From NCBI RefSeq assembly GCF_011762185.1, contig NZ_JAASQJ010000004.1, positions 62,001 through 126,000 of the forward strand: 64,000 nt of DNA, given 5' to 3'. The position numbers and the translations under genes are program-made. This DNA is from Dyadobacter arcticus (GTDB lineage Bacteria; Bacteroidota; Bacteroidia; Cytophagales; Spirosomataceae). The notes below the pieces were generated by a model, which was not told the DNA's origin, searched no databases, and saw nothing but the letters and a program-made list of their open reading frames with translations. How positions within the stretch are numbered: the stretch's first letter is position 1; the number at the start of each line of letters is the position of its first letter. Of the stretch, positions 1 to 17,377 are shown piece after piece.

Positions 1-685
1 TGGGATGCCACATGGGTGCACCAAGCTTTCCCGTGGTGGTCAGGAAAAGTTTTTCTTTCCCGGAAGCCTCACGTAAGGAAGTCTCCATCATGTAAATGCC
101 AGGCGCAGAGGTACGTTCCGAAACATAACTCAATCTGGATCCGTCGGGCGAGAAGGCTGGGAAATAATCATTGCCCTGATCATGCGTGAGTTGCGTCAGC
201 TTGCCACTTTCGGGTTCAAGTTGCCAGATATCGTAATTGCCACTCCTGTCTGACGAGAAAACGAGCTTTTTGCCATCGGGTGACCAATACGGTTCGCGGT
301 CATCAAAGGTGCCAAATGTAAGCTGAACCGGCGCGCCGCCATTTTTATCAACAGAATAAATGTGAAAGTTACCATCCCAGAATGCCTGAAATGTAATTTT
401 TGAACCATCTGGCGACCATACCGGCTGACGGCAATCGCCCAGTTCGTCGGTTAACGCCTTGGCATTGCTGCCGCTCACAGGAATAGTGAAAATAGTCCCC
501 TGTAAGTCCATCGCAATTGTCTTCTTATCAGGCGAAAGTGCAATTGCGATGTTGGTACCTTCCGTAAGCGTTACTTTTAAGGAATCGGTCCTTGTGTTAG
601 CGGCCGTAGTATTGATATTCAGTCCAACCAAACCAATGCAGGCGAAAGTCAGGAATACTGTTTTAATTTTTCGAGAGAAGGTCAT
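1..685 (-). CDS. Secreted PD40/TolB-type beta-propeller protein, N-terminal 228 residues (truncated by window edge)
   Basis: The reading frame is open from an ATG at 685 to the window edge, giving 228 residues of a longer protein. A signal peptide covers about residues 1-25 (MTFSRKIKTVF, then a hydrophobic stretch to TTAA). It is followed by repeated WSPDG / FSPDG blades (VWSPDGSKITF, YWSPDGKKLVF, AFSPDGSRLSY) typical of PD40 repeats, so it folds as a periplasmic beta-propeller. In Bacteroidota the arrangement LSPDKKTIAMDLQG followed by PD40 blades often begins a roughly 1000-residue protein with a C-terminal amidohydrolase domain; that part is outside the window, so the enzyme assignment is inference. 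The other end of the gene cannot be seen. Confidence 0.8.
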   Translation of the reverse strand, partial: MTFSRKIKTVFLTFACIGLVGLNINTTAANTRTDSLKVTLTEGTNIAIALSPDKKTIAMDLQGTIFTIPVSGSNAKALTDELGDCRQPVWSPDGSKITFQAFWDGNFHIYSVDKNGGAPVQLTFGTFDDREPYWSPDGKKLVFSSDRSGNYDIWQLEPESGKLTQLTHDQGNDYFPAFSPDGSRLSYVSERTSAPGIYMMETSLREASGKEKLFLTTTGKLGAPMWHP

Positions 686-841
686 CCGGCTTATTTCTTA
701 TAGAGTAGGTTTATAAAGATAAGCCCCTGACTTGTCGAAAAGACCCAATTTCAGCAGATTTTTTCAGCGGAACTAGCGACGTACTTAACAACCGGCATAA
801 CTATCATGTGGTGTTAGAATGAACCGGGAAAATCCTTCAAC

Positions 842-906
842 GAAACATCGCTGTTCTTTTTTGAAACATCTCTGTTCCTCTCAAAAATAGAGAGCAGCTA
901 CTTTTG
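842..906 (+). promoter_or_regulatory. Composite operator-promoter, copy 1 (tandem 21-bp-spaced repeats plus TACTTTTG)
   Basis: Two direct repeats start at 842 (GAAACATCGCTGTTC) and 863 (GAAACATCTCTGTTCC), 21 bp apart, i.e. on the same helix face. TCAAAA follows at 881 and a Bacteroidota -7 box TACTTTTG at 899-906. The distances (21, 36 from the second repeat to the -7 box, 18 from TCAAAA to the -7 box) are identical in the copies at 4031 and 7637. It lies 92 bp before the hybrid kinase gene at 998. AraC is known to bind direct repeats spaced 21 bp at araI, so the AraC domain of the adjacent regulator is the obvious candidate binder (inference). Confidence 0.8.
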
Positions 907-917
907 AGAGGATCGTC

Positions 918-1001
918 ATGAATCTGCGCAACCCCGTCACCCGTATACGCGTATCCCAAGATGAAGTGATCCTGATTCCCAGACTACATCTACCGCCATG
1001 A
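918..1001 (+). other. Possible 27-codon upstream reading frame coupled to the hybrid kinase start
   Basis: An ATG at 918 opens a 27-codon frame (beginning MNLRNPVTRIRVSQDEV) whose TGA at 999-1001 overlaps the ATG of the kinase gene at 998 in an ATGA arrangement. It begins only 12 bases after the -7 box, so it would be the first start codon on the transcript. The overlap suggests translational coupling, but a frame this short may be chance, and no family is recognised. Confidence 0.3.
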
Positions 1002-3991
1002 AAAATAGTAATCTTTATTGCCTTCTGCTATGGATCTTTTTGTTTGCCTTTTCCGCCGAAGCGCAGCAAAACCAGGCCAAAGTGCTGGAAGAAAAGCTTT
1101 CCCGCACACCAGCGGATACCAACAGAGTCAATTTATTGCACCATTTGTCCTATCAATACTATATATGGGGCGGTGATCAGGAAAGAATTAAAATGTATGC
1201 TGACGAGTGTTTGCAATTGTCCATCAAACTGCATCATACCTACGGTATTGCATTGGCGTATAATGCATTGGGCAGATACTATTTTAAAACCAATCAGAAC
1301 CAGCAGGCCCTGATGCATTTTGAAAAGGCCCTGAAATTTTATCAGCTGGTAGGGCGAAAGTTAGGCCTTGCCGTTATTTATAGAAGTATCGCCATGGTGA
1401 ACCAGGATATGGGAAATTTCGCCAAATCCATGGAATATTACTTAAAAAGCATCCGCATCGGGGAAGAGATCCAAAACCAGGAGATTATTGGCAATACGTT
1501 TCAGACCATTGGCTTACTGATGCTGGATCAAAAAAAATACGACGATGCCCTTTGCTACCTTTTTCAAGCATTATCCATTCATCAAAAACTAAAAGATGAC
1601 AGAAGCAAGGCTATTACATTGAATGCGATCGGGCTGGTGTGTCAGGAACGCAGGCAATATGCCAGGGCCTTGCATTACCTGAACCGGTCGCTGAGGCTTT
1701 CTGACTCGCTCGACCTGCCACAAATCAGGGTTACCAGCTACAACAGTTTGGGCGCAGTGCTTTTTTTTCAGAAACGGTATGATCATGCTTTCGGCTATTA
1801 CGAAAAAGCGCTGAACCTGGCCGCGCCACAGAGTTATCAGAAGCCAATGAGCATTGCCATGGATGGCATGGCTGATGTTTATCTGAAAAAGAATAATACT
1901 GCCGAAGCCATCTACTATTACCAAAAATCTCTGGAAATCGCAGAGGCAGCCGAGCTGATTAAACAGAAAATTGAGGCGCACGAGGGATTAATGACCGCTT
2001 ATGCTACTTCCGGTGATTATCAACGCGCCTATCTTCATCAATCGAATGTATTGTCATTGAAGGATTCAACATTTACGAAGGAAAACGACAACAAAATTGC
2101 CCAGCTGGAAGCCTCATATGAAGTTGAGAAAAAGCAGGCGGAAATAGTGCTTCTTCATAAAGACCAGCAACAGGCCAAACTCGTTAGAAATGCGATTTTG
2201 GCGGGTTTATTGGCTTCTCTTGTCATTATTGGCCTGGTTGTAAACCGGCAACGGCTAAAAAACCGGCAGAACCGGCTGCTTTTTGCAAAAAGCGAAGAGA
2301 TCACTGGTAAAAATATCCAGTTGGAACAACAGGCAAAGCAATTACAAAAACTCAGTCAGGTAAAATCAAATTTCTTTGCCAATATCTCGCACGAATTCCG
2401 GACCCCTCTTACGCTGATCCTGGCACCTATGGAGAAATTGCTGACAGGCAATCTGGAAAGTGGGCAGGCAAAAGGCTATTATCAGCTGATTGATCGCAAT
2501 GCCCGGCAATTACTCCACCTCATCAACCAGCTGCTGGATTATTCTAAGCTGGAAGCCGGTTCATTGAAAGTAAAGCTGATCCGCGGAGATGTCAATCAGA
2601 GAATGAAAGCGACCACATTTGCATTCTTTTCCCTGGCCGAAAGCAAACAAATTCACCTTCATTTTCGCTCCGAATTCAAAAGCATCCAAGCGCTTTTTGA
2701 CCCAGATTTGTTGGATAAAATTCTTAATAATCTACTGTCCAACGCCTTTAAGTTTACGCCGCCCGAAGGTCATGTAACCGTGAGCGTCGCTTTGTTGAAC
2801 ACGCCTGATGCCGCGCAATCGCCTGCCAGGCAGACAAACCGAAGCCTGGAAATTACAGTAAGAGATACCGGCATAGGCATCCAGGAGAAGCAACTGGACC
2901 AAATATTCGACCGGTTCTTTCAGGTGGAGGGAACTCAGGTTGTTGAGCAACAGGGGACGGGAATTGGCCTCGCGCTGGTGAAGGAGCTTGTCAATCTGCA
3001 CAATGGTACGATTTCCGTTAAAAGTGAGGTAGGGCAGGGTACCCGATTCGCGGTTCATCTGCCTTTGGCCGAGTGTAGCTTCGAGATCAAACAATTGGTG
3101 GATCAGCCTAAAACTGAGTCAAGCTTTGGATGGTTTAAAGAACAAGCAAATGGGCATTTTGCGCTTCCTGTCTTACCGCTTCATGTTGAGCAGAATAATC
3201 AAAAACCGCTGATGCTAATGGTGGAAGACAATGCTGAAGTAAGGGAATTTATAGGCCGCAGTTTTCTGGAGAATTTTCGGGTAATCGAAGCTTCAGATGG
3301 TGTGGAAGGATTAAAAATAGCCCAGAAAGAGATTCCGGATATTATTATTACTGACCGTATGATGCCGCTGATCGATGGTGTTGAGTTTTGCCGGCAATTG
3401 AAAAACGATGAGCGGACCAGCCACATTCCCTTGATCATGCTCACCGCCAAAGCCTCTGAAACCAGTAAAATCGAAGGGTTGAAAATTGGCGCGGATGATT
3501 ACATCCTCAAACCATTTAATCTGTTGGAGTTGAAAATAAGAGTGGAAAATCTAATCGAACAGAGAAAGCAGCTCAGAGAACGATTTACCCGGGAAGTGAG
3601 GTTACAGCCCAAAGATATTGCGATCAGCTCGGCGGATGAGGTATTTTTTCAACGTGCAATCCGGGTCATTGAAGAGCATATGGCCGACACAGACTTCAGT
3701 GTCGAAACATTTGTGAGTAAAGTGGGTATGAGCCGGGTGCAGGTGCATCGTAAGCTGAAAGCCCTCACCAATCAATCTACCAGTGAATTTATCCGTTCCA
3801 TCCGTTTGAAAAGAGCGGCGTCTTTGCTGGAACAACATTACGGCAGTATTGCTGATGTGATGTACGAGGTAGGGTTCAATAACGTGTCGTATTTCGCCAG
3901 CAATTTTAAGAAAATGTATGGCGTCAACCCCAGCGAATATCAGCCTTATGCTACGGCTCAGGCCGAGCGGGCCAATTCGAAGAGCAAATAA
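998..3991 (+). CDS. Hybrid two-component regulator: periplasmic TPR sensor, histidine kinase, receiver, AraC output
   Basis: One 997-residue polypeptide carries a whole signalling pathway. Residues 1-22 are a signal peptide (ends SAEAQ); about 40-370 are TPR repeats that would face the periplasm; a membrane segment lies near 397-420. A HisKA domain has the phospho-acceptor His465 in SHEFRTPLTL. The HATPase domain has its N box near 575-585, DTGIGI at 623 and GTGIGLALV. A receiver domain has phospho-acceptor Asp786 (IITDRMMP), and an AraC-type double helix-turn-helix fills about 890-985 (SIADVMYEVGFNNVSYFASN). It differs from classic polysaccharide-utilisation HTCS proteins in having TPRs rather than beta-propeller Reg_prop repeats as sensor. 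Its own promoter holds the same tandem operator found before the lipoprotein and TonB genes, so autoregulation is likely (inference). Confidence 0.93.
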   Translation: MKNSNLYCLLLWIFLFAFSAEAQQNQAKVLEEKLSRTPADTNRVNLLHHLSYQYYIWGGDQERIKMYADECLQLSIKLHHTYGIALAYNALGRYYFKTNQNQQALMHFEKALKFYQLVGRKLGLAVIYRSIAMVNQDMGNFAKSMEYYLKSIRIGEEIQNQEIIGNTFQTIGLLMLDQKKYDDALCYLFQALSIHQKLKDDRSKAITLNAIGLVCQERRQYARALHYLNRSLRLSDSLDLPQIRVTSYNSLGAVLFFQKRYDHAFGYYEKALNLAAPQSYQKPMSIAMDGMADVYLKKNNTAEAIYYYQKSLEIAEAAELIKQKIEAHEGLMTAYATSGDYQRAYLHQSNVLSLKDSTFTKENDNKIAQLEASYEVEKKQAEIVLLHKDQQQAKLVRNAILAGLLASLVIIGLVVNRQRLKNRQNRLLFAKSEEITGKNIQLEQQAKQLQKLSQVKSNFFANISHEFRTPLTLILAPMEKLLTGNLESGQAKGYYQLIDRNARQLLHLINQLLDYSKLEAGSLKVKLIRGDVNQRMKATTFAFFSLAESKQIHLHFRSEFKSIQALFDPDLLDKILNNLLSNAFKFTPPEGHVTVSVALLNTPDAAQSPARQTNRSLEITVRDTGIGIQEKQLDQIFDRFFQVEGTQVVEQQGTGIGLALVKELVNLHNGTISVKSEVGQGTRFAVHLPLAECSFEIKQLVDQPKTESSFGWFKEQANGHFALPVLPLHVEQNNQKPLMLMVEDNAEVREFIGRSFLENFRVIEASDGVEGLKIAQKEIPDIIITDRMMPLIDGVEFCRQLKNDERTSHIPLIMLTAKASETSKIEGLKIGADDYILKPFNLLELKIRVENLIEQRKQLRERFTREVRLQPKDIAISSADEVFFQRAIRVIEEHMADTDFSVETFVSKVGMSRVQVHRKLKALTNQSTSEFIRSIRLKRAASLLEQHYGSIADVMYEVGFNNVSYFASNFKKMYGVNPSEYQPYATAQAERANSKSK

Positions 3992-4030
3992 CCCTTTTCA
4001 TTCTGCATTTCTACACGAAAAGTTTTAAGG

Positions 4031-4095
4031 GAAACATATCCGTTTTTCTTTGAAACATCTGTGTTCCACTCAAAAAGAGCCCCCCGCTACTTTTG
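4031..4095 (+). promoter_or_regulatory. Composite operator-promoter, copy 2
   Basis: Direct repeats start at 4031 (GAAACATATCCGTTTT) and 4052 (GAAACATCTGTGTTCC), 21 bp apart, followed by TCAAAA at 4070 and the -7 box TACTTTTG at 4088-4095. The leader to the lipoprotein ATG at 4156 is about 55 nt and includes a short imperfect hairpin at 4099-4122. The geometry is the same as in the copies before 998 and 7364. Confidence 0.8.
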
Positions 4096-4155
4096 ATTCA
4101 GATTCATGGCCAATGAAATCTGAGTTTCATCTTTTTTTTATCCTAATTTTTTAAA

Positions 4156-4707
4156 ATGAAAAAATCATTAAGTAATCAAGTATTAGCCACGACGAAAGTT
4201 TCAGGCCGGAAATTAGCAGAATGCCTTGTGTTAGGCATGGCCATTTTCTCAGCGAGCATTTTATTTTCTGGCTGCAAGGAAGATTCTAAGGATGACCAGG
4301 AACCGGTATTAGACCAGGAGCTCAGTAAGCTTCACATTGCAGTTGCGCCTTTTGCAGATCTCGAAAAGGCAAAGAAGGCGGGATATGATACGGATGTGAC
4401 GGGATATCGTACACAAATGGGACATCACTATCTGAATGCCGGATTGTTGGACGACAAGTTTGAAATAGACAAACCGGAACTGATGTTATACGCGCCTTAT
4501 GGCAACGAGCCGATGAAGTTTGTGGCGGTAGAATATGCGCAACCCATCAAGGATATAAAAAATCCACCAGCTGTTCCCGAAGGATTTACCGGCAAGGATG
4601 ATAAATGGGAAATCAATACTGAATTTAACTTATGGACGCTCCACGTCTGGACTGAATTGGACAACGAGAACGGCGTGTTCGCCCCGCATAATCCGAAATT
4701 GAAGTAA
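4156..4707 (+). CDS. Secreted lipoprotein of unknown function in the hybrid-regulator regulon
   Basis: The 183-residue product has a long N-terminal region ending in a lipobox (ILFSGC, Cys near residue 40), so it is probably an outer-membrane or periplasmic lipoprotein. The mature part has an acidic linker (KEDSKDDQEPV) and then a compact domain of about 135 residues with conserved-looking blocks MGHHYLNAGLLDD, ELMLYAPYG, KFVAVEYAQP and LHVWTELDNENGVFAPHNP. I recall similar blocks (MGxHYxN, LxVxEP, HVWLW..NPxGxFxxxNP) in secreted proteins of unknown function from several phyla; this is recollection, not a search. The His-rich motifs could bind a ligand or metal. It shares its promoter design with the upstream kinase and the convergent TonB receptor, so it may be the surface partner of that receptor (inference). 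Confidence 0.85.
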   Translation: MKKSLSNQVLATTKVSGRKLAECLVLGMAIFSASILFSGCKEDSKDDQEPVLDQELSKLHIAVAPFADLEKAKKAGYDTDVTGYRTQMGHHYLNAGLLDDKFEIDKPELMLYAPYGNEPMKFVAVEYAQPIKDIKNPPAVPEGFTGKDDKWEINTEFNLWTLHVWTELDNENGVFAPHNPKLK

Positions 4708-4711
4708 AATA

Positions 4712-4770
4712 AAAAATAGGGGAAGGACTTACAAAGTCTTCAAGACTTGGCAAGTCATTCCCCTATTTTT
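4712..4770. terminator. Bidirectional terminator between convergent lipoprotein and TonB genes
   Basis: A perfect 13-bp stem pairs AAAAATAGGGGAA (4712-4724) with TTCCCCTATTTTT (4758-4770). The A-rich left and T-rich right flanks make it usable from both strands, as expected between the convergent stops at 4707 and 4773. The loop contains a second palindrome at 4726-4756. Confidence 0.8.
4726..4756. repeat. Dispersed palindrome (GACTT...AAGTCTT/AAGACTT...AAGTC), copy A
   Basis: The inner palindrome pairs GACTTACAAAGTCTT (4726-4740) with AAGACTTGGCAAGTC (4742-4756) around one base, with a 3-bp mismatch in mid-stem. A close relative with the same GACTT-NNN-AAGTCTT design lies at 18989-19021. 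Here it is nested inside the terminator stem. Confidence 0.6.
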
Positions 4771-4772
4771 AT

Positions 4773-7364
4773 TTAAAAATTAAAATTAACCCGCGCGAAG
4801 ATATACCTTCCATTCACGCCCATCTGCTGAACACGCCGAGAATAGACAAACCTTCCAAGGCTGACATTCCCTGAATGTGTATGCCTGTCCTGATAAACAT
4901 CAAATACGTTATTTGCCCCAATCGAAAGGTTAATGCCTTTTAACAGATCGTAATTCAAGGCAATGTCGGTTACGATTTTCGCCCCAAATGTCTGGTCCAG
5001 CGATTCTTTCTTGGTAGTCAAAGTGTTGACAGGCCAGGAATCCGGTTTGGTAGGATCAATGGTTGGGTCCCAATAAGAAACTTCGCCAAAGCGCACGCCG
5101 CGCAGCATTACCCCGAATTTCCCTGTTTTGTAATTGATGGTCAGGCTTTGCTTGTTTTTAGGGCTGGCGATTTCAAAACGGCTTAAATCCTCCCGGTTGA
5201 AATAAGTGTTGACCTGATTGGTTTCCTCCAAAATAGGGGACGCGTGAATGATAGGTTTGTCGCTTGCATCTTTCTTAACTTTATTTTGAATGAATGTCCC
5301 TGCCAAAACTGCCCTTATAGATTGACTTGTTCCAAATTTAGTATTGTAAGATAAAACGCCTTCTAATCCCCGGGATCGGGTATCAACGGCATTGGAAAAG
5401 AAATTAGCGGTTGTAGCATTGGCCGCCGCTAGTTGAGCTTTTAATGCTGCATTGCTCCCGTCATTGAAATTATTAGTCAATACAATGCGGTCGTCAATGT
5501 CGATCTGGTAAGCGTCCAAAGTCAGTTCAAATGCATTGTTGATCTGGATTGTAGTTCCTACGGTAAAACTTTGGGAAGTTTCCTGCTTCAATTTTGGGAT
5601 ACCCAGGATTTCGGCTGGTTTGCTGTCGTTGGTAAATGTCCCGCTTTCCTGGGCAACCTGCTGACCGTTTTGTGTTACGAACAATGTATTGGTTTTGGCA
5701 TAGTACCGCTGTTGCAGCGAAGGTGCGCGGAAACCGCTACTGGCCGAGGCGCGTAATGCAATGCCGTCTGTGATCTTGTACCGGGTGGCAACTTTGTAAT
5801 TCAATGTATTGCCAAAATCCGAAAAATTCTCAAAGCGCAATGCAGCGCTCAAAACCCAGGCTTTGGTAATGTCCTGTTCCACGTCAATGTAACCTGCCAC
5901 GCTGTGACGGGAATGGGAGCCGGCATTTTGAGGGAAGAAACCTGAAAAAACCTGCGCGCCTGCCGCAACCCCGGCAGCAACGTCATAGTTTTTATAAGAA
6001 GCTTCTTCACCGGCTGTAATCGTGTATTTATCAGTTCGCTGTTCCGCACCAACCGCAATATTTAATCCATACAAAACATCGAACTTTCTGCCTAAATCCA
6101 GGTTGATTGTATTTTGGGAAAACGCATTTCCTCCTGCATCAAACGTGGTTTGCAATTTGCCGGCCGCTACTGCCTGGGTATAGTTGACGGAATTTGAAAT
6201 CTCATAGTCGAAATCGTTTTTGCCAAATGTGTTACTCAGATCAAATTTCCATTCCCCCAATTTGCCACGAATGCCCGCTGCCGCCGAAATGTCGGTCACG
6301 TCGCTGTTGATCTCAGGAAGAAAACCATTGGGATAAAGAGCGAGCACATTGGTCCGGACAGCCGCTGGGACGCCATTGGGATAGCGATAAAACCCGGCTG
6401 CATTGCCCTTTTTGTTATTATATCCGCCAAATGCATAAATTTCAATGTTGGTTGAAACCGGAATATTTGCATTCAAAACCACGCCGCCACCGTTGACCTT
6501 CGAATTTCCAATCCGCATATCGAAATCTTCGCGGGTGAGGCCCTTTTCGCTGAGCAGCGCGTCGTCGACCACTTTTCCACCGACGGCTGGGAAAATCTGG
6601 CCTGTGTATGTACCAGTCCGGTTGGTTGCTTCCCGGTTTACATATTCACCTGTAATGTTCAGAAAGCCTTTTTGGCCGATTTTGAGCCCATAATTCAAAC
6701 CGACCTGCGCAGTCCCTCCGTCGGAAGTTTTGACAGAAGCATTCTTACCATTGTTGAGGATATAGTTTTTATCATAACTGGTTGCATTCTGACCGTAAGA
6801 AACGTTACCGCTCAACCCAGTGCGGGTTTTTAAAATGATGTTGATAACCCCTGCAATAGCATCGGAGCCATATTGGGCGGCAGCGCCGTCCCTGAGTATT
6901 TCTATTTTATCGACCGCTGTTGCGGGAATTGCATTCAAATCGGTGCCGACTGTTCCGCGATTAACGGTCCCATTAACATTGACCAATGAAGACTGGTGCC
7001 TTCTTTTTCCATTTACTAAAACCAAAACCTGATCGGGACCGAGACCACGCAGCTGGGCCGGATCAATGTGGTCGGTACCATCAGAAATGGTTTGCCGGGA
7101 CGATTGGAAGGATGGCGCAATGTAAGTCAGGATCTGATTAATATCGACCTGGCCAATGTTGTTGGTAATTTGTGAAATTGGGATGATATCTACAGGTACG
7201 GGGGAGTCTATACGCGACCGTCCGCCACCGCGTGAACCTGTCACGACAATTTCACTAAGATTTCGGGTCGAGTCTGCCGGAAATGTGCCGTCGCCATTTG
7301 TCCCTTGTGAGAATGCGGATAAAGTAGCGGCAAGCACTACGAATAGTGTTAATGATTTTTTCAT
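4773..7364 (-). CDS. TonB-dependent outer membrane receptor
   Basis: An 863-residue outer-membrane protein with a signal peptide at residues 1-20 (ends LSAFSQ). A plug domain follows at about 40-170, with the conserved stretch LRGLGPDQVLVLVNGKRR and EILRDGAAAQYGSDAIAGVI, then a beta-barrel of about 650 residues ending in the aromatic residue of ARVNFNF. It has no N-terminal carboxypeptidase-like domain and no SusD neighbour, so it resembles stand-alone iron-complex-type receptors more than SusC; its substrate cannot be read from sequence. It is convergent with the lipoprotein gene and transcribed from the third copy of the shared operator-promoter (7573-7637), leaving an unusually long leader of about 200 nt. 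Confidence 0.93.
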   Translation of the reverse strand: MKKSLTLFVVLAATLSAFSQGTNGDGTFPADSTRNLSEIVVTGSRGGGRSRIDSPVPVDIIPISQITNNIGQVDINQILTYIAPSFQSSRQTISDGTDHIDPAQLRGLGPDQVLVLVNGKRRHQSSLVNVNGTVNRGTVGTDLNAIPATAVDKIEILRDGAAAQYGSDAIAGVINIILKTRTGLSGNVSYGQNATSYDKNYILNNGKNASVKTSDGGTAQVGLNYGLKIGQKGFLNITGEYVNREATNRTGTYTGQIFPAVGGKVVDDALLSEKGLTREDFDMRIGNSKVNGGGVVLNANIPVSTNIEIYAFGGYNNKKGNAAGFYRYPNGVPAAVRTNVLALYPNGFLPEINSDVTDISAAAGIRGKLGEWKFDLSNTFGKNDFDYEISNSVNYTQAVAAGKLQTTFDAGGNAFSQNTINLDLGRKFDVLYGLNIAVGAEQRTDKYTITAGEEASYKNYDVAAGVAAGAQVFSGFFPQNAGSHSRHSVAGYIDVEQDITKAWVLSAALRFENFSDFGNTLNYKVATRYKITDGIALRASASSGFRAPSLQQRYYAKTNTLFVTQNGQQVAQESGTFTNDSKPAEILGIPKLKQETSQSFTVGTTIQINNAFELTLDAYQIDIDDRIVLTNNFNDGSNAALKAQLAAANATTANFFSNAVDTRSRGLEGVLSYNTKFGTSQSIRAVLAGTFIQNKVKKDASDKPIIHASPILEETNQVNTYFNREDLSRFEIASPKNKQSLTINYKTGKFGVMLRGVRFGEVSYWDPTIDPTKPDSWPVNTLTTKKESLDQTFGAKIVTDIALNYDLLKGINLSIGANNVFDVYQDRHTHSGNVSLGRFVYSRRVQQMGVNGRYIFARVNFNF

Positions 7365-7572
7365 ACTTGATTGTTTATTTGTGGATAATTAAAATGAAAG
7401 GTGAGCTCCCGAGTCAGGAGGATATTGAGCAGAAAAGGGGTGGGGATTCCGGTTAAAAATGATTATTGGCCGGAACAGGGAATTCATGCACTTCATGTAC
7501 CAGTATCAAATTCATTTAGAATAGCTTTGTTGCTGACAAGTGTTTCGGATTCACCAAAGGACAAATCCGAAA

Positions 7573-7637
7573 CAAAGGTAGATGCGGGCAATTTTTGATA
7601 GGAACACAGATGTATCAAAGAAAGACAGAGATGTTTC
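7573..7637 (-). promoter_or_regulatory. Composite operator-promoter, copy 3 (TonB receptor gene)
   Basis: Read on the minus strand, direct repeats begin at 7637 (GAAACATCTCTGTCTT) and 7616 (GATACATCTGTGTTCC), 21 bp apart. TCAAAA follows at 7598 and the -7 box TACCTTTG at 7580-7573. The 36 bp from second repeat to -7 box and 18 bp from TCAAAA to -7 box equal those in the other two copies. The element starts within 6 bp of the end of the OsmC gene, and its leader to the TonB start at 7364 is about 200 nt with no riboswitch that I recognise. Confidence 0.8.
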
Positions 7638-7642
7638 TTTGA

Positions 7643-8125
7643 TCAACTTTTGATTGAACGGAGTTTACTTATTGGGTTATGATGAATGGGAAAATTGACG
7701 GAGTTGGCAATAAAACAGAATTCGTTTGCCTTTTGATGTAGATCCATGGATTTTTCGATCATGGACGCGTTTTCAACCGTCACAATGGGGTTTAATGTTA
7801 CTTCTTTAAATTTCCCGCTGCCGTTAGCACCTTCAATCATAATCGCTGTGGCGCTATCCTCATAGTCGAGGACCACAACGCCTGCCTCGGCGCATAAATG
7901 CAGATACCAAAGCATGTGGCAGGATGAAATAGAGGCAATCAACAAACCTTCCGGGTTATGTCTATTCCTATCACCGCGAAATGCAGGATCCGACGACCCT
8001 AAAATCTCGGGTTTATTTTCAACCCTGATGACATGGCTTCGCTCATACGATCTGTAATCCGAAGTTCCGGTGCCCAAATTGCCCGTCCATTCGACGGTGA
8101 GTTCGTAATGATGTTCTTTGGCCAT
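7643..8125 (-). CDS. OsmC/Ohr family protein
   Basis: A 160-residue cytoplasmic protein of the OsmC fold, thiol peroxidases that reduce organic hydroperoxides. Cys69 in SISSCHMLWYLHLC and Cys137 in NEFCFIANSVNFP sit 68 residues apart, matching the catalytic cysteine pair of the family; Cys78 is an extra nearby thiol. NPEGLLIASISSCH is the usual first helix. It is 15 bp downstream of the ACT-domain gene and probably cotranscribed with it. Both diverge from the ArsR-type regulator at 8605, which may control them (inference). Confidence 0.9.
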   Translation of the reverse strand: MAKEHHYELTVEWTGNLGTGTSDYRSYERSHVIRVENKPEILGSSDPAFRGDRNRHNPEGLLIASISSCHMLWYLHLCAEAGVVVLDYEDSATAIMIEGANGSGKFKEVTLNPIVTVENASMIEKSMDLHQKANEFCFIANSVNFPIHHNPISKLRSIKS

Positions 8126-8140
8126 TGTTTATTATTAAAT

Positions 8141-8539
8141 TTAATTATCCCACCATTCCTTCATCCAAGCTTCTGATACTATTTTACCTTTTTCAAAATC
8201 ATCCACAACGATAATCAATTGATTGGCGTGGTCGCTGTATTGGGTCAGGATATTCACTTGGGCATCTGCCAGTTTTTTGCAGAACATTCCCAATTGTCCC
8301 GGGACATCCTGACGCAATTTTTGGATAATAACCTCATTTATTCTTACCACTTCTATTCCAACGCCTGCTAATACTTCTTGTGCACGCTCAGGTTGATCTA
8401 CCAAAAAATGAGCCATTGAAAATGTGCCATTTGAAAACACGCCGCCACCTTCGAGGCTAATGTTATTCCTGCCTAATGTCTCGCCCATCAAAGCAAGCAT
8501 TCCCGGCTTATTCTCTAAAATAATTTCTAAGTCTTTCAT
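8141..8539 (-). CDS. Tandem ACT-domain protein
   Basis: The 132 residues form two ACT-like halves. The first is clear (KDLEIILENKPGMLALMGETL, residues 2-22, with the ENKPGxLA turn), and the second starts near residue 75 (DVPGQLGMFCKKLADAQVNI). There is no catalytic domain, so it is a stand-alone ligand-binding regulator, perhaps of an amino acid; the ligand is unknown. It lies first in a two-gene operon with the OsmC gene and diverges from the ArsR-type gene across 65 bp. Confidence 0.85.
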   Translation of the reverse strand: MKDLEIILENKPGMLALMGETLGRNNISLEGGGVFSNGTFSMAHFLVDQPERAQEVLAGVGIEVVRINEVIIQKLRQDVPGQLGMFCKKLADAQVNILTQYSDHANQLIIVVDDFEKGKIVSEAWMKEWWDN

Positions 8540-8604
8540 TATCTAATTTTTTTATTACAAACTAAAACGATCCGTTACATTTACACTTCATCTGAAAATG
8601 AACT

Positions 8605-9294
8605 ATGGATGCTGAGGAAGATTTTGTAACGATAACCAGCCTGATCTGTGAGGCGTCAAGAGCAAAAATGCTTTGGAATTTGCTCGATGGCAGGGCTTAT
8701 ACCGCCGGGGAACTTGCCATTGCGGCAGATATTTCGGCTACTTCCGCAAGTAATCACCTTGCAAAGCTATTGGAAGCCACAATTGTGAAAGTTGAAATAC
8801 AGGGAAGACATCGATATTATTCTTTTTCGCGGCCCGAAGTTGCCTATGTGGTAGAATCTCTGGCAATGCTTGCCACGCATCGTCCACAAGAGAAAGCGGA
8901 AAAAGTAATTAGCCATAAGCCAGTGAAATTTTGTCGTACCTGTTACGATCACCTGGCGGGTTTTGTTGGTGTAAAATGCACCGAAGCACTTGAATTTCAG
9001 GGATATATTGAAAAATCAGGTATTGCATATACTGTTTCTGACCGAGGTTGGGATTGGTTTCAAAAATTGGATATCTCAAAGAATGATTTCAAAAATCCCA
9101 GACGTCCTTTGACCCGACAATGCCTGGATTGGAGCGAACGGCGGCCACATCTGGCGGGGCAGCTCGGAGCACTGTTATTGGAGAAAATGTTGCAAAAGGA
9201 TTGGTTTAGGAAGGCCCAGTTTTCGAGGCACCTGACACTTACCTCACTGGGCAGTCGGCAACTTAGTGAGCTGCTTGGATTGGAAATTTCGTGA
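8605..9294 (+). CDS. ArsR-type winged-helix transcriptional regulator with extended C-terminal domain
   Basis: A 229-residue regulator. Residues about 8-85 are a winged helix-turn-helix (GELAIAADISATSASNHLAK is the recognition region; RYYSFSRPEVA the wing). The C-terminal 120 residues hold CRTCYDHLAGFVGVKCTEAL and CLDWSERRPHLAGQLGALLL, a pattern I associate with a subgroup of ArsR proteins roughly twice the minimal length. Cys residues in CRTC and C-x-DWSERR could sense a metal or oxidant, but this is inference. It is divergent from the ACT-OsmC operon, the classical place for a local repressor. Confidence 0.88.
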   Translation: MDAEEDFVTITSLICEASRAKMLWNLLDGRAYTAGELAIAADISATSASNHLAKLLEATIVKVEIQGRHRYYSFSRPEVAYVVESLAMLATHRPQEKAEKVISHKPVKFCRTCYDHLAGFVGVKCTEALEFQGYIEKSGIAYTVSDRGWDWFQKLDISKNDFKNPRRPLTRQCLDWSERRPHLAGQLGALLLEKMLQKDWFRKAQFSRHLTLTSLGSRQLSELLGLEIS

Positions 9295-9329
9295 AGTAAC
9301 CGTAATTCCCTTGTTATTTATTAAATTTT

Positions 9330-10634
9330 TTAACCTGGTAGCTTATACCCGTTATGATACTCATTCTCAATGAGTTTATTGGCCGCGGCATCGTCAAATC
9401 TTCCTTTTTGGGAATTCCAGTTAATTTTCTTTCCGGTGCGGTAGGCAATGTTTCCCATTTGCGACAGGATGGCAACATGAGAGCCAACCTGTATCGGAGC
9501 ATTCAAATCTTCCAGTTTCCTTGACCGGATCACCTCGATGAAATTTTTGGCATGCAAGTCTAGTCCATTGTCCGAGGATTTCTGAAGCATCACAGCCTCC
9601 ATTTGTTTTCCCTGTGGTACTACTTCCCAGCCATTCCTGTCAACAATGAGTGTACCGTTGGCGCCCATAAAGGCGATTCCATGTTCCCGATTGTAAATCC
9701 CTGCTCCATAGCCAATTGCATGTTCCCACTGAATATTGAAGTCTCCAAATTCGTAAATAGTAGTAAGCGTATCAGGCGCATCGACCCCGGAATTAAGGAT
9801 CATGCCGCCAGACGCGGTAACACTTTTTGGCGCACCAGCTTTCATTCCGAGTATCGCATAATCCAGCAAATGCACACCCCAGTCAGTCATAATGCCGCCA
9901 GCATAATCCCAATACCAGCGGAATTTCCCGTGAAAGCGGTTTTCATTAAAAGGTCTTTTTGGTGCGGGGCCCAGCCACATATCGTAGTCAACACCTGCTG
10001 GGGTTGCACTATCCGGAAGGCTTGTAAGCGGCGTACCATAATTGAAATATCCCCAAACCTTGACCAGCCCAATTTTACCGAGCTTACCCGAATGCACAAA
10101 CTCAATTGCATCGCGAAAGTGCTTCTGGCTTCGCTGCCATTGTCCTACCTGCACCACACGCTTGTAACGTTCCTGCGCTGCCACCATACTCCTGCATTCA
10201 GCGATTGAATTTCCAATCGGTTTTTCAACATACACATCCTTTCCCGCCTGACAAGCCTCTACCATCATCAGGCAATGCCAATGGTCTGGTGACCCGATGA
10301 CCACCGCATCAATACTCTTATCTTCCAGAAGCTTACGATAGTCACCATAAGTTTTCACTTTAATACCCTTCGCTGCCAGTTCGGCGGCCCGCTTATCCAG
10401 CACATTCTTATCTACATCGCACAAGGCAACGCATTCAACACCTGGATTTTTCAGAACAGCATTTAAATCCCACCAACCCATTCCATTTATACCAATACCA
10501 GCAACCCGGATCGTATCAGCCGTCGAAAAGATCTTCGGAAAAGCCGATGCCGAAAAAGGTAATGCCGAAGTAATCCCCGCCCCAGCGACCATCGCCGTAG
10601 CTGAACTGATAAATTTTCTTCTGGTGGTTGTCAT
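9330..10634 (-). CDS. Tat-exported Gfo/Idh/MocA family oxidoreductase
   Basis: A 434-residue NAD(P)-dependent oxidoreductase exported by the Tat route: the N-terminus has TTTRRKFISSATAMVAGAG with a hydrophobic segment ending near residue 32. A Rossmann fold follows (IRVAGIGINGMGWWD, with ALCDVDK), then VYVEKPIGNSI, the lysine-containing motif of the family. The C-terminal alpha/beta domain includes WDYAGGIMTDWGVHLLDYA. Members act on sugars or sugar derivatives; the substrate is not evident. It stands alone with a 180-bp upstream gap. Confidence 0.9.
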   Translation of the reverse strand: MTTTRRKFISSATAMVAGAGITSALPFSASAFPKIFSTADTIRVAGIGINGMGWWDLNAVLKNPGVECVALCDVDKNVLDKRAAELAAKGIKVKTYGDYRKLLEDKSIDAVVIGSPDHWHCLMMVEACQAGKDVYVEKPIGNSIAECRSMVAAQERYKRVVQVGQWQRSQKHFRDAIEFVHSGKLGKIGLVKVWGYFNYGTPLTSLPDSATPAGVDYDMWLGPAPKRPFNENRFHGKFRWYWDYAGGIMTDWGVHLLDYAILGMKAGAPKSVTASGGMILNSGVDAPDTLTTIYEFGDFNIQWEHAIGYGAGIYNREHGIAFMGANGTLIVDRNGWEVVPQGKQMEAVMLQKSSDNGLDLHAKNFIEVIRSRKLEDLNAPIQVGSHVAILSQMGNIAYRTGKKINWNSQKGRFDDAAANKLIENEYHNGYKLPG

Positions 10635-10822
10635 GGGATGGTGGGATTTAGGTAATGATAGAACATTATAAATGTAAAGAAATATAATGCTATTTGATTG
10701 CTTGAAAGCAATTGAAACGATACGTCTAAAAAGGGGAAACTATTGATGAAATGCAGCGACTACGACCGAAATCAGTCAGTGTGCGACTGAGAAGTTTAAA
10801 TATTACGCGGTGCTGAGGAGAA

Positions 10823-11077
10823 TTATTTTTTGAGGCTACTCCAATCTGCGTTTTTGAAGACCTTGGTCATTACATAATCAGTTTTTGCTTGCGCGCCTTC
10901 CTCAGGAGATGAGAACTGACGGTCGAGCGGGTGTTTTGGGTTGTCCGCCGCTTTTTTTCTTTTGATTACCTTTTCCATTTCGACCAAGATTGTGTTAGCA
11001 ATGTTAAATTTTTCTGAGCGAAATACCAAAGCCCTCGTAGGATTTGTTCCGTTCAAATGGCTCGAACTGAAAGCCAT
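10823..11077 (-). CDS. Small hypothetical protein
   Basis: An 84-residue frame starting at ATG 11077 (MAFSSSHLNGTNPTRALVF); a GTG at 11122 could extend it by 15 residues. It is basic in the middle (EMEKVIKRKKAADNPKHPLD) and ends in KTDYVMTKVFKNADWSSLKK. Composition looks like a soluble protein, not a random antisense frame, but I recognise no family. Part of a gene remnant is also possible. Confidence 0.4.
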   Translation of the reverse strand: MAFSSSHLNGTNPTRALVFRSEKFNIANTILVEMEKVIKRKKAADNPKHPLDRQFSSPEEGAQAKTDYVMTKVFKNADWSSLKK

Positions 11078-11296
11078 TAAAGCCTTGAATAAAAAAACAT
11101 TGGGAAGCTGTTTTAAATTCACGCGCTATTGCGATTTGATCGAGGCGCGTCCGGGTAGGGGTACTTCCTGAAAAAACTACTGTTGCGTCCTGTGAATGGG
11201 TAAAAGGGTTGATACGTTAGTGTGCGATTACGAAACAATAATTTAATGTAATGATACAAATTGGTGCAAACATCATCAAAGGGACACGTTAAAATA

Positions 11297-11327
11297 AAAA
11301 TCCTGTAATCATCGATTACAGGATTTC
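11297..11327 (-). terminator. Rho-independent terminator of the DUF2911 gene
   Basis: A perfect 13-bp stem pairs AAATCCTGTAATC (11298-11310) with GATTACAGGATTT (11314-11326) around a 3-base loop. On the minus strand the hairpin is followed by a T-rich run and lies about 20 bp after the stop at 11346. Confidence 0.8.
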
Positions 11328-11345
11328 TTTTCAAAAATCAAAAAA

Positions 11346-11885
11346 TCACTTGATAGCTACCGGAACCTCGGTGTTATCCCACCGGATTACAAAGCCGCTG
11401 GCAGTCACTTCATACATGAGTTTTTCGTTCATTGAAGCACTTTTACCTGGCTTGGCTTTAACAGTTAAAACGTCTTTTGCAGCGTCCTTGGAAGTGTCGC
11501 CTCCCCGTTTGATACCCCACTGACCAGTTTCGGAATTGAATATAAATGACCATTCAGTTGCACCCGGCATAGCATATAGGCTGTATTTTCCAGCCTTCAA
11601 CGCCTTGCCCTCTACCATAATGTCCTTATCGGTTTCAAAAATAGTAGCTTCGTTGGCGCCTGCCCGCCACACTTTGTCAAAAGGAACAAGATCACCGAAT
11701 ATTTTGCGGCCCTTCACGGACGGACTGGAATAATTGATTGTTACTGTTGCTTCGCCTACTTTTCCTGTTGCAGTTTGTGGAGCACTTGGACGGCTGGCTT
11801 TATCTCCCTGCGCCAATATCGCCGTTGATACGAACATGCACATCATTCCAATAACGAACCCTTTTAACATCATTTCCTTTTTCAT
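11346..11885 (-). CDS. Secreted DUF2911 family protein
   Basis: A 179-residue exported protein with a signal peptide at about residues 1-26 (ends TAILAQ). The remainder matches the DUF2911 pattern in order: VTINYSSPSVKGRKIFGDLV, PFDKVWRAGANEAT, ALKAGKYSLYAMPG, EWSFIFNS and a C-terminal strand region. The family is common in Bacteroidota and has no established biochemical role. It is monocistronic, ending at a strong terminator. Confidence 0.88.
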   Translation of the reverse strand: MKKEMMLKGFVIGMMCMFVSTAILAQGDKASRPSAPQTATGKVGEATVTINYSSPSVKGRKIFGDLVPFDKVWRAGANEATIFETDKDIMVEGKALKAGKYSLYAMPGATEWSFIFNSETGQWGIKRGGDTSKDAAKDVLTVKAKPGKSASMNEKLMYEVTASGFVIRWDNTEVPVAIK

Positions 11886-12067
11886 GTTATTTCTTATTTT
11901 GGTTTAAACTAATCACTTAGAAAATTTAATAAATATCGTGAATTCTGACAATATCTGACCTGCTCTTCTTATTCTTGCCAAAATTGCCTGGGATGACAAA
12001 GGTTAGGAGGTAAGCCTTAACTTCGCCAATCAAATTCTTAAAGCTCAACCTGAATAATACAGATTTA

Positions 12068-12583
12068 ATGGATGAAATATCGTACAAGCTTAATGCTGAG
12101 GAACTCTACTATGGCATGGTAGATGTTGCAAAAACCCGTCTGATTACCAAGATTTTTAAGATCCTAAGCATGGTTTTATTGGGTGCCATGGCTTTTGTGA
12201 CCGTTGTCACCATGAAAAGTGGGAGTTTTAATATCACTACTGGATACGTTATTACCATTGTTTTGGCCTTATACGGTTATTTTTTGCCGGAGATTTCGGC
12301 AAAAGTCCAGGTTCCGACTATTGTTAAAAACAAGGCACCTCTTTCGCAGCAGTTAAAGCTAAACTTTTATAAAACCTATTTTAGCCTTTCCGGAGAGACA
12401 TTTAATCATAAGATAAATTACCAAAAGCTACATTCCGTGGTTGAAACAGATGATTTTATCCTCCTGAAAACCGCCGAAGGCAGTGCAGATATCCTGCCAA
12501 AACGGGCTTTTTCAACGGATCAGCTTCTAAAATTCAAGTCGATTCTGGGGGCTGTCGAGGGGTTGAAAGTAAAATTGAAGTAA
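12068..12583 (+). CDS. YcxB-like membrane protein
   Basis: A 171-residue protein with a short N-terminal segment, two membrane helices at about residues 30-50 and 58-75, and a C-terminal cytosolic domain (KTYFSLSGETFNHKINYQKL... FILLKTAEGSADILPKRAF) with the strand-rich pattern and xPKRAF ending of the YcxB-like C-terminal domain. Function is unknown. No close operon partners; the following genes are on the other strand. Confidence 0.75.
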   Translation: MDEISYKLNAEELYYGMVDVAKTRLITKIFKILSMVLLGAMAFVTVVTMKSGSFNITTGYVITIVLALYGYFLPEISAKVQVPTIVKNKAPLSQQLKLNFYKTYFSLSGETFNHKINYQKLHSVVETDDFILLKTAEGSADILPKRAFSTDQLLKFKSILGAVEGLKVKLK

Positions 12584-12628
12584 TTGGGCTTGCGCCGGAA
12601 ATCTTGTACTGGCTAAGTCAGAGGAACA

Positions 12629-13030
12629 CTATCGTCTGGTAGTTCTGCGAGACTTAGAGATTCGCTGATAATCGGGTTTCACGGATTCAAGTTTTTCAAT
12701 ATTACTTTCGAATCTGATCTGTCGATACTTTTTCAGTTCTTCTGCAATTTCCTTTTTTCTGTATTCACATGAACAGCTAAGCCTTTCTATTTCAAGGTTT
12801 TTGATTTCATCAGACAAATTCGCCTCATACCTTTTCTGCTGATTTTTTAACTTAATTTGATCCGCTTGCTCATTGATTAGCATTGCAGTATAAAATGCTA
12901 TTGCAGGAGATATTAATAATCCGAACGAGCGGAAAGAAATATCTGCTATAATAAGATTGATCAAGGTTGCAAAAGATGCTGAAAGTAATACTTCAAGATC
13001 CGGTTTACCTCGGGGCTTGACAATATTCAT
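12629..13030 (-). CDS. Small membrane protein with long coiled-coil tail
   Basis: The 133-residue product has two hydrophobic segments (about residues 13-30 and 36-50) and then a highly charged helical tail (EQADQIKLKNQQKRYEANL onward) likely to form a coiled coil, ending in a basic KSRRTTRR. No family recognised. Its ATG overlaps the stop codon of the upstream 63-residue gene by one base (TAATG), so the two are translationally coupled. Confidence 0.65.
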   Translation of the reverse strand: MNIVKPRGKPDLEVLLSASFATLINLIIADISFRSFGLLISPAIAFYTAMLINEQADQIKLKNQQKRYEANLSDEIKNLEIERLSCSCEYRKKEIAEELKKYRQIRFESNIEKLESVKPDYQRISKSRRTTRR

Positions 13031-13221
13031 TAGCCAGGTATCGAATCCCTCAATTTGCGTAAATCTTCCTTACTTCCCAGGTCAGAAACTTCGATCCAGG
13101 TGTCGCTGTTTCTGAGTTTGACCTTGTAGGCTCCTGATTTGCCAAAGAATTTAATGAAGATCACGACTAGCGAAAGTATGATCGGGATGGATGTAATAAT
13201 GATATTAAACGTCATCGTCAA
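13030..13221 (-). CDS. Small single-pass membrane protein, coupled to the next gene
   Basis: A 63-residue protein with one N-terminal membrane helix (FNIIITSIPIILSLVVIFI) and a cytosolic tail (AYKVKLRNSDTWIEVSDLGS) ending in KEDLRKLRDSIPG. No family is certain. The tail resembles small associated components that present a strand-strand-helix unit, but that is only an impression. The TAATG overlap with the 133-residue membrane protein points to a shared function. Confidence 0.6.
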   Translation of the reverse strand: MTMTFNIIITSIPIILSLVVIFIKFFGKSGAYKVKLRNSDTWIEVSDLGSKEDLRKLRDSIPG

Positions 13222-13377
13222 ACGAAGTTAGTGGTTGATAATAATAATCTTAACTTTCAGATGACCTGCATAAAAATGCAGCAGATCAAAAGGGAACGAT
13301 GAGCTTCATTGTACGGTAACAATGAGCCCCTAAGATAGTGATTTTTGCTAATGTAAAAATTCTTTTCCCCGACTTTT

Positions 13378-15486
13378 TCAAAACTCAACCAACGCCCGAG
13401 TTACATTCTCGGAAGGGTTTTCAAACCGGATTTTCAATCCTGTTTTTTCGGACAATTCGTCGACAAGTCTTAGTCCAAGTCCGCTTAGACCCTGATTACC
13501 ATCCTTTTGGCTGAGGATGTGTTGGTAAGTTTCCTGGCTGAATGCCGGACCTGTATTTTCGATGGAGAGAATTTTGTACGTTTCGCTGCCGTTCAGTTTC
13601 AGGCTGATGAGACTGTTTTCGTCCGCAGCTTTAATGGCGTTTTGTAGTAAGTTTCTCACAATCGCCTGAAGGTAATATGGGTCGGTTTCGACCATCAATT
13701 TACCTGGGATATTGTTGTCAATCTGGATTTTCTTCGACTCAATGTTCAGTTGCAATAGTTTGAGACATTGGTCAGTCACTTGCATAACTTCCACCGGTTG
13801 AATGTCGGCCTTGAACTGGTTGATTTGGGTTTTTGACCATAGCAATAAGTCTTCCATTGTTTCCAAAAGAGATCCTGTTGCCAACTGGATTTTGTCACTC
13901 AGCTCGGCTTTTTGCGTTTCATTCAGCAACTTTGGATTAAGCTGCTGTAATTTCAGGAACTGGTGCACCTGACTGATCGGTGAGCGCAAATCGTGACTGA
14001 TAATGCTAAACAGCTTCGCTTTTGTCAGGTTCGCTTCTTCTAGTTCCCTGATCAGCTTGGCCATTTCGCGGTTTTTTTCGTCCAGTATCTCCGCATTTTT
14101 TTTCTTATTCCGATAAATTATCCCAAGCAAAACAAGGGACGATGCCAGGAAAGAAAGCCCGGAAATCAGCCAGATCCGCTGTTGTCTGGCCTCATCAATT
14201 TGTAAGTTTTTGATTTCAATCTGCTGCTGTTTATCCTTGTTTTGATAAAGCGCCTCCGCATCGGCGATGCTTTTTTTGGAAGCCTCCGTATACAGCGAAT
14301 CTCTGAGTGGAATATACTTTTCGTAATAGTTATTGGCTAGCTGCCATTGCCCGGTCCCGGCATAACATTTGGCTAGTGATCTTAATAACTCAACATAAAT
14401 TTCCCTGGCCCACTCCTTGCAAAAAGGTTCTGAGGCTTTTAGCAACGGAAGCGCTTTCTGATATTCTTTCTGCGCCATATATACCTCACCGTTCATATAG
14501 GTTACCTGTGACATGAGATAGTTATTGGCCCATTTTTCGGCAAGCTTGTTGGCCCTCGACATATAAATGCGCGCGCTGTCGGGCTGCTTCTTTGTCAGGT
14601 AGTAATCAGCAAAGCCCAGATCAATGGAAATCTTATTACTACGGCTCCGATCCGATCGATTGGTAGGATCGATCATATTTGCAACACTATCATAATACAC
14701 TTTTGCCTTTTCAATATTCTCCATGCTCAGGTAAACGTCCGTCATATCCTTGTAATGATGGGACAAGAATGTCTTGTTTCTGACAATGTATTTTCTGGCT
14801 TCGAGACTGTAATAGAGCCCTTTTTCTGGCTGGTTTAGTGAGATATATAGTTCCGACAGGTTCATAATATCGGCAACGATCAGCTCTCTATCCTTAATCT
14901 GACCATTTTCGATCAATTTTTTCATTGATGTGATGGATGCAAGCAGATATTTGATCTGCGTTTCATACTGTCCCAGCAGAGAATAATAGCTTGAAACGGC
15001 TACATATAATTTTACTTTATCTTTTTCAGACCTGGTTGTATCAATGATACCTAAGATTTCTTTTAATATCTCCTTGCTCTGCGCGGCTCGACCTGCCATA
15101 TTGGAATTAATGTACATCAGTCTTGAAAGCGCTTCCCGGACCCTCGCCGGGCTTTTTGCTTTTCGGGCATTTGCTACTGATTTTTCGAGATAGTAGAGGC
15201 TGCTGTCGGCGCCACGGGCTCTCTGATATTCGAAGGCCACACCTAAATTGAAATCAAAAATAGAAAGGTAGTAGTAATTGTTGGCTGGAATGATGGAGTA
15301 AGCATAATGCGATACGGTTTTTACCTGATCGTACTCTTCCCTTTGATAAAGCGTGTCGCAAAGTGTAGCCAGCGCTTCAAGTTTCGCAGTGGTCGTTTTG
15401 TATTTTTTAAGATCGGGAATAAGCTGTGCATGGCCAATCCCGGAAAACGCGCAAAGCATTAACAGCGAAAGTAACGTTTTTACCAT
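13378..15486 (-). CDS. TPR sensor histidine kinase paired with the LytTR regulator
   Basis: A 702-residue kinase: signal peptide at 1-20 (ends SGIGHAQ), TPR-rich extracytoplasmic region to about 400, helical linker, membrane segment near 435-457, then a cytoplasmic HisKA domain with His498 (SHDLRSPISQV) and a HATPase domain (NLLQNAIKAADE; GLGLRLVDELS). It starts 1 bp after the stop of the response regulator gene, so the two form a tight operon. It uses a HisKA-type dimerisation domain rather than the LytS-type kinase more often paired with LytTR regulators; both types occur in Bacteroidota. Confidence 0.92.
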   Translation of the reverse strand: MVKTLLSLLMLCAFSGIGHAQLIPDLKKYKTTTAKLEALATLCDTLYQREEYDQVKTVSHYAYSIIPANNYYYLSIFDFNLGVAFEYQRARGADSSLYYLEKSVANARKAKSPARVREALSRLMYINSNMAGRAAQSKEILKEILGIIDTTRSEKDKVKLYVAVSSYYSLLGQYETQIKYLLASITSMKKLIENGQIKDRELIVADIMNLSELYISLNQPEKGLYYSLEARKYIVRNKTFLSHHYKDMTDVYLSMENIEKAKVYYDSVANMIDPTNRSDRSRSNKISIDLGFADYYLTKKQPDSARIYMSRANKLAEKWANNYLMSQVTYMNGEVYMAQKEYQKALPLLKASEPFCKEWAREIYVELLRSLAKCYAGTGQWQLANNYYEKYIPLRDSLYTEASKKSIADAEALYQNKDKQQQIEIKNLQIDEARQQRIWLISGLSFLASSLVLLGIIYRNKKKNAEILDEKNREMAKLIRELEEANLTKAKLFSIISHDLRSPISQVHQFLKLQQLNPKLLNETQKAELSDKIQLATGSLLETMEDLLLWSKTQINQFKADIQPVEVMQVTDQCLKLLQLNIESKKIQIDNNIPGKLMVETDPYYLQAIVRNLLQNAIKAADENSLISLKLNGSETYKILSIENTGPAFSQETYQHILSQKDGNQGLSGLGLRLVDELSEKTGLKIRFENPSENVTRALVEF

Positions 15487-15487
15487 G

Positions 15488-16210: not shown

Positions 16211-16294
16211 GGAAATTTAGGATTTACTTCCCTAATATATGTAAAAGCGGCATTGATACATACCGCTTTTAGTAAAAATGGGTAACATTACGTA

Positions 16295-16597
16295 TCATAT
16301 TGAGTGAGATAACCGAGTGTTAAACTGAAGAACCCACATCCAGTGTAATGGCCATTGTGAATGAACTCCCTCATGGCTGACCAATACTTCATCAACCATT
16401 TCGTAACCAGTAATGCGGCCACCACTTTTTTCAATATCATTCTTTGCGTGGTTGTATAGCTGTACCCAATTCTTCGTCGATTTTAGGTCCATTTCAGGAT
16501 CATTACTGTATCGCTGAACCAGGTAATGTTTAAAACTCTCATCGCTAAGCGAAATCACCGAATGTTTTTCAATTTCCGTTTTCATAGTTGTGTACAT
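16295..16597 (-). CDS. Hypothetical protein
   Basis: A 100-residue soluble protein (an internal ATG at 16585 would give 96). It is rich in charged and aromatic residues, with no signal or membrane segment (SDESFKHYLVQRYSNDPEMD; WPLHWMWVLQFNT near the end). No family recognised. It stands alone upstream of the LytTR operon. Confidence 0.6.
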   Translation of the reverse strand: MYTTMKTEIEKHSVISLSDESFKHYLVQRYSNDPEMDLKSTKNWVQLYNHAKNDIEKSGGRITGYEMVDEVLVSHEGVHSQWPLHWMWVLQFNTRLSHSI

Positions 16598-17365: not shown

Positions 17366-17377
17366 AACCTTCAAGCC

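Follow-up and report, generated by a model that had tools for sequence, protein, structure and literature searches.

What reads the three closely similar elements that precede the genes for a hybrid sensor kinase, a lipoprotein and a TonB-dependent receptor in this part of the Dyadobacter arcticus genome, and do these elements delimit a regulon of their own? The features concerned, within the 64-kb stretch of DNA that was analysed (the window), are the following.

842 to 906, forward strand: composite promoter element 1, upstream of the hybrid kinase gene; repeats begin at 842 and 863, -7 box TACTTTTG at 899-906
998 to 3991, forward strand: hybrid two-component protein, 997 aa; TPR sensor, HisKA, HATPase_c, receiver and AraC-type DNA-binding domain (Pfam)
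4031 to 4095, forward strand: composite promoter element 2, upstream of the lipoprotein gene; repeats begin at 4031 and 4052, -7 box TACTTTTG at 4088-4095
4096 to 4125, forward strand: predicted RNA hairpin immediately 3′ of the -7 box in element 2 (z -2.55)
4156 to 4707, forward strand: lipoprotein, 183 aa; lipobox cysteine C40; family without a Pfam or NCBIfam model
4773 to 7364, reverse strand: TonB-dependent receptor, 863 aa; plug PF07715 and barrel PF00593 above cut-off
7543 to 7572, reverse strand: predicted RNA hairpin immediately 3′ of the -7 box in element 3 (z -2.1)
7573 to 7637, reverse strand: composite promoter element 3, before the TonB-dependent receptor; repeats from 7637 and 7616, -7 box TACCTTTG at 7580-7573

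The likeliest answer, to which a probability of about 0.82 is attached, is that the elements are activator-dependent promoters read by the protein encoded at 998-3991, which would control its own gene, those of the lipoprotein and the receptor, and a further locus on contig C3. The geometry of the sites, their rarity, their linkage to the kinase and the match between repeat word and AraC-type domain are computed results, from which we infer binding and activation.

All three elements share one geometry: 21 bp from the start of the first repeat to that of the second, 36 bp from there to the TAnnTTTG box, and 18 bp from the start of TCAAAA to the box, exactly as, and where, a sequence-only reading of this DNA had placed them. 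That reading described three identical elements. There are indeed three in the window, but the 65-bp elements are alike at 52, 52 and 53 of 65 positions in pairwise comparison, with 46 of 65 common to all three, and the genome holds more than three. Their 100-bp flanks agree at only 17 to 42 of 100 positions, so the elements are not recent copies of a longer stretch. A 37-bp consensus, allowing up to 3 mismatches, finds exactly 3 places in the window and none in each of 100 dinucleotide shuffles. As for the composite nature of the signal, the repeats and the -7 box are kept elsewhere, but TCAAAA is not kept at its place in a fourth site of the same genome or in the sites of two other genomes (G040 and G052, below), and is therefore probably not part of it. 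Predicted leader hairpins are clear at sites 2 and 3 and weaker at the C3 site (L006:1566-1594), the G040-receptor site and the G052 site; a conserved 5′ hairpin in all leaders was rejected because it is absent at the kinase site and the G040-lipoprotein site. The kinase leader (918-1001) holds a 27-codon frame whose stop overlaps the kinase start codon (ATGA), an arrangement resembling translational coupling.

The protein that follows element 1 begins with a hydrophobic segment, as judged by eye, and carries all four HTCS domains (HisKA, HATPase_c, receiver and C-terminal AraC-type) above Pfam cut-offs. For AraC-output HTCS of Bacteroides thetaiotaomicron, direct-repeat operators averaging 21 bp have been predicted for 16 systems, with similar words for similar AraC domains and mostly adjacent targets, according to excerpts of the published study (Ravcheev et al., 2013; PMC3878776). 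The operator type is thus already known from those excerpts, and the present locus, with its hybrid kinase and its 21-bp direct repeats near putative targets, appears from sequence to have the features of an AraC-output HTCS. The likeness to the systems excerpted there extends to the joining of kinase, receiver and AraC-type domain in one protein and to the repeats themselves. The differences lie in the sensor, which is of the TPR type here, whereas the HTCS of that study are said to have polysaccharide-binding sensors; in the targets, here a receptor that is not of the SusC type and a lipoprotein whose family lacks a model, in place of a SusC/SusD polysaccharide locus; in a standalone AraC domain that here would share the operator; and in the distance to the -7 box, fixed at 36 bp here and given no fixed value in the excerpts. 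The arrangement also recalls Escherichia coli AraC at araI1-araI2, where two direct half-sites 21 bp apart lie just upstream of the core promoter and the protein contacts polymerase. E. coli AraC, however, binds sugar through a domain of its own, lacks kinase and receiver, and acts at a sigma-70 promoter, in contrast to the kinase, receiver and Bacteroidota-type -7 box found here. A paper on Bacteroides hybrid systems (PMC11253607) does not contain the words direct repeat, tandem or half-site, and no open-licence paper on TPR-type hybrid kinases with AraC output was found by title.

No SusC/SusD pair, as expected of a polysaccharide utilisation locus, adjoins the regulator: the SusC/RagA signature TIGR04057 scores 19.2 bits on the receptor against a cut-off of 46.2, and there is no SusD match among the six proteins tested between 998 and 9294. 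Solved chains that match the receptor (enterobactin-type, colicin I and B12 receptors) align only with residues 58-227; no substrate can be named. The uptake role once proposed for the trio is conjectural. Adjoining the receptor promoter, at 7643-9294, are OsmC-like and ACT-domain genes, divergent from an ArsR-like regulator.

If the elements belong to a dedicated system, they should be scarce. The short exact pattern GAAACAT-N14-GAAACAT, proposed in the sequence-only reading as a genome search, gives 2 matches in the 6.04-Mb genome against 1 for its control and misses copy 3, whose second repeat is GATACAT; the significance of the motif hence rests on longer patterns, which are rare. The 37-bp pattern has 4 sites in this genome and its reversed control none. 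With up to 3 mismatches, the 65-bp pattern is matched in 1 of 48 genomes of the genus, namely this one, and in 0 of the 47 others. Across 390 genomes of the order, searched with a consensus revised with the G040 sites, the full pattern occurs in only two, with 4 sites in this genome (G000) and 2 in G040, the reversed control giving 0 in every listed genome. The motif is thus not spread widely before unrelated genes, the outcome that was to have spoken against a dedicated regulon.

G040 belongs to another family, and has the three genes together, with a kinase 61%, a lipoprotein 60% and a receptor 42% identical to those of the window. Its two sites precede the lipoprotein and the receptor, and none faces the kinase. 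In both G040 and G052 a site near the kinase points away from it, so the autoregulatory arrangement is found in the present genome and not in those two. The G052 site faces a PAP2-family gene, and that genome has no lipoprotein homologue at E <= 0.001. Overall, the site and relatives of the kinase stay together across families while the targets look fluid.

The spacing between repeats and box can be examined with the box withheld from the search. A looser 32-bp pattern, consisting of the two repeats alone, finds 10 sites in G000, G040 and G052 (5, 4 and 1, respectively), and its reversed control finds 0, 2 and 0, which leaves room for one or two of the weaker sites to be chance matches. Every one of the 10 has the box precisely 36 bp downstream of where the second repeat starts, as TAnnTTTG in 8 and with a single mismatch in 2; among the offsets from 20 to 59, none outperforms 36. 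A version of the pattern with spacing 22 has no match on either strand in these genomes and 1 control match. Seven of the 10 sites were already known. The three new ones are L137, in the present genome; L133, immediately following the gene of a hybrid kinase of G040 that shares 73% identity with the window kinase in the AraC domain and, by eye, has a different type of sensor; and L135, also in G040, just 3′ of a short TPR-like frame.

The spacing of 21 bp also emerges when the GAAACAT word is not used at all. A search with the sensor part of the kinase (residues 1-440) at E <= 1e-50, scoring up to 4 candidates per genome, finds relatives in 12 of 390 genomes. From at least 15 such places, the nine with frames above 1000 codons were taken, six shorter ones being left out; the window locus, which prompted the test, counts among the nine. 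Around each, pairs of similar 15-mers with spacings of 12-35 were sought before a TAnnTTTG box (within bases 7001-18001 only for L025 and 1-9000 only for the window), and overlapping windows were merged into distinct sites. At a threshold of at least 10 of 15 matches, spacing 21 gives 14 sites in 9/9 loci against 0 to 5 sites for each other spacing; at 11 or more, 12 sites in 7/9 loci against at most 1. In G076 one of the sites is some 7 kb distant from the kinase. The rule does not hold for hybrid kinases at large: at 20 further loci, chosen by AraC-domain similarity, spacing 21 does no better than other spacings (3/20 at 10 of 15 matches, 1/20 at 11 of 15), and the claim is accordingly narrowed to the closer TPR-type kinases. 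Nor does it reach all TPR-like kinases, since just one of the five weakly TPR-like members of that set has a site at 11 of 15 matches. In G321 (L054:2698-8912) the site of the TPR-type kinase faces short frames that to the eye resemble lanthipeptide precursors, with the gene of a lantibiotic dehydratase (Pfam) further downstream; in G087 (L055:5232-7003) an exported astacin-tectonin protein follows the site. The idea of a Peptidase_S74 surface gene recurring next to the kinases was also considered and discarded, as Pfam matched the G052 protein alone and none of four look-alikes picked by eye.

The word within the repeats divides these loci. It is of the GAAACAT type at the window, G040 and G052 loci and of a GTTAC type in G327, G076, G344, G321, G087 and G102; in these six the distance to the box is 36 to 38 bp, according to the register chosen. 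The AraC domains divide likewise: identity to that of the window kinase is 68-75% in the GAAACAT-type group, with the L133 kinase of G040 and the standalone C3 domain counted in, and 49-54% at the GTTAC-type loci. The second helix-turn-helix region of the domain, which we take to be the recognition region, changes in step with the word. By this computation, the repeat word appears to follow the AraC domain of the kinase. Because the site is rare, travels with the kinase and carries a word matched to its AraC domain, control by the kinase of its own gene and of both exported proteins, as proposed from the sequence, is the best reading and the idea of a dedicated site survives; the autoregulatory part is weakened by the lack of such a site in G040 and G052.

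The proposed set was, on the other hand, said to be self-contained, and it is not. The fourth site of the genome, on contig C3, has 2 mismatches to the 65-bp pattern. The protein of 126 aa encoded after it looks by eye as though it begins with a signal sequence, and its match to DUF3244 (E 0.0048) falls below the cut-off. Beginning 12 bases after the stop of that gene is an open 147-codon frame (L024:8018-8461), starting at TTG, that encodes a standalone AraC-type domain with similar helix regions and 68% identity to kinase residues 854-984. It is the only frame so short among the listed relatives at E <= 1e-33 (390 genomes, best 10 or fewer per genome scored), the others having 353 to 1470 codons. 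Conceivably, this domain could act as a sensor-free amplifier, or as a competitor, on a shared operator. The fifth, weaker site (L137) lies beside the C3 site, before a lipoprotein-like gene on the opposite strand. With these two additions, the predicted regulon is wider than the trio.

The C3 domain raises the question of which protein is the principal regulator. Its resemblance to the kinase domain, its open frame and the site upstream of it would suit a main activator that the kinase only adjusts or competes with. This seems improbable, as G040 and G052 keep sites and kinase with no such short AraC frame among their listed relatives (best 10 or fewer per genome), and the C3 frame is a predicted one that starts at TTG. 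Still less probable is that the elements are read by a special sigma factor or by another, unlinked regulator of the AraC family, with the kinase near them by accident. Nothing specific recommends such a factor beyond the wealth of AraC-type domains in the genome (61 first-look candidates) and in the genus, and that same wealth tells against it, given that the motif occurs in 1 of 48 genus genomes; moreover, sites and kinase relatives are found together in other families, and the word follows the kinase's own AraC domain.

The sign of regulation is a separate matter, as the geometry of the sites is compatible with either sign and activation is a deduction. The elements could in principle be repressor sites at which the kinase holds the genes off until a signal releases them. 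An activator that touches polymerase, such as AraC at araI, sits upstream of the core promoter, and here the second repeat lies 5′ of the -7 box with about 20 bp free between them, the usual place of an activator, whereas a repressor more often overlaps the box or the start; repression is accordingly held to be very unlikely. Under the preferred reading, that of an activating kinase, the TPR part of the protein, presumably periplasmic, would sense some unspecified signal, which would pass from kinase to receiver to AraC-type domain. Two such domains would then bind next to each other, two turns (21 bp) apart on one face of the helix, and from their place just 5′ of the Bacteroidota-type -7 box would recruit RNA polymerase. 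The hybrid protein would in this way raise its own level and switch on the lipoprotein and the TonB-dependent receptor and, at the second locus, the small exported protein, the standalone AraC domain and probably another lipoprotein. The system as a whole may handle some ligand at the cell surface.

The receptor appears to have a history of its own. Orthologues 84-91% identical to it occur in 18 of the 47 other genus genomes, and in all eight of the 18 mdh-type loci whose context was examined the gene, a frame of 930-950 aa, adjoins the malate dehydrogenase (mdh) gene. In the present genome the mdh locus (L139:9435-9713) has the same neighbours and no receptor. A CarboxypepD-like domain is present in the mdh-linked orthologue of L118, the only one scanned, and absent from the window receptor; by alignment, all eight mdh-linked orthologues have an extra stretch that matches this region of the L118 protein. 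The window receptor and the G034 copy are 78% similar in DNA over 2.5 kb, beginning inside the gene and falling short of the promoter. The simplest reading is that the window receptor moved, lost a domain and came under the kinase promoter, and that another receptor did likewise in the G040 lineage, whose receptor (42% identical) lies outside the mdh-type orthologue set. Replacement by horizontal transfer is an alternative to relocation. The three genes do co-occur in G040, but with receptor orthologues at mdh and the receptor seemingly acquired separately in the present lineage, the trio is, on these comparisons, not an inherited unit.

The lipoprotein belongs to a family in which the lipobox cysteine C40 is invariant (9/9 aligned homologues). 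It has no Pfam or NCBIfam match at E 0.01, and its best PDB sequence match has an E of 0.058. For a structure model built from 9 sequences (pLDDT 75.5, pTM 0.65) Foldseek finds nothing at E <= 0.001, and none of 1000 chains re-aligned to it reaches a Z of 5, which does not imply a new fold. The family is found in 8 of 395 genomes of the phylum at E <= 1e-15, with weak homologues (24-35%) on six plasmid records from haloarchaea, rhizobia and Gemmatirosa, and is, as judged from these matches, broad and patchy. Some homologues adjoin an SCO4226-like/AraC regulator (L019:1744-3824, by Pfam; L021:6545-8474 and L022:5902-7796, by eye), which is at most a hint of function.

There are signs that the promoter signal has moved onto other genes. 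It is a tentative idea, less probable than not, that it forms a portable promoter cassette owned by the kinase, with the shed AraC domain acting sensor-free as amplifier or brake on the shared operators, and that the cassette has captured resident surface genes, among them receptors of two lineages that joined one kinase-lipoprotein pair in two families. The case shows a receptor that, within one genus, acquired a new location, a different domain composition and another promoter; it also shows a DNA-binding domain persisting without its sensor. With the rule of 21 bp between repeats and about 36 bp to the box, likely targets of TPR-type hybrid kinases would become readable from sequence, so that sensors without a ligand and exported partners without a function could be tested promoter by promoter.
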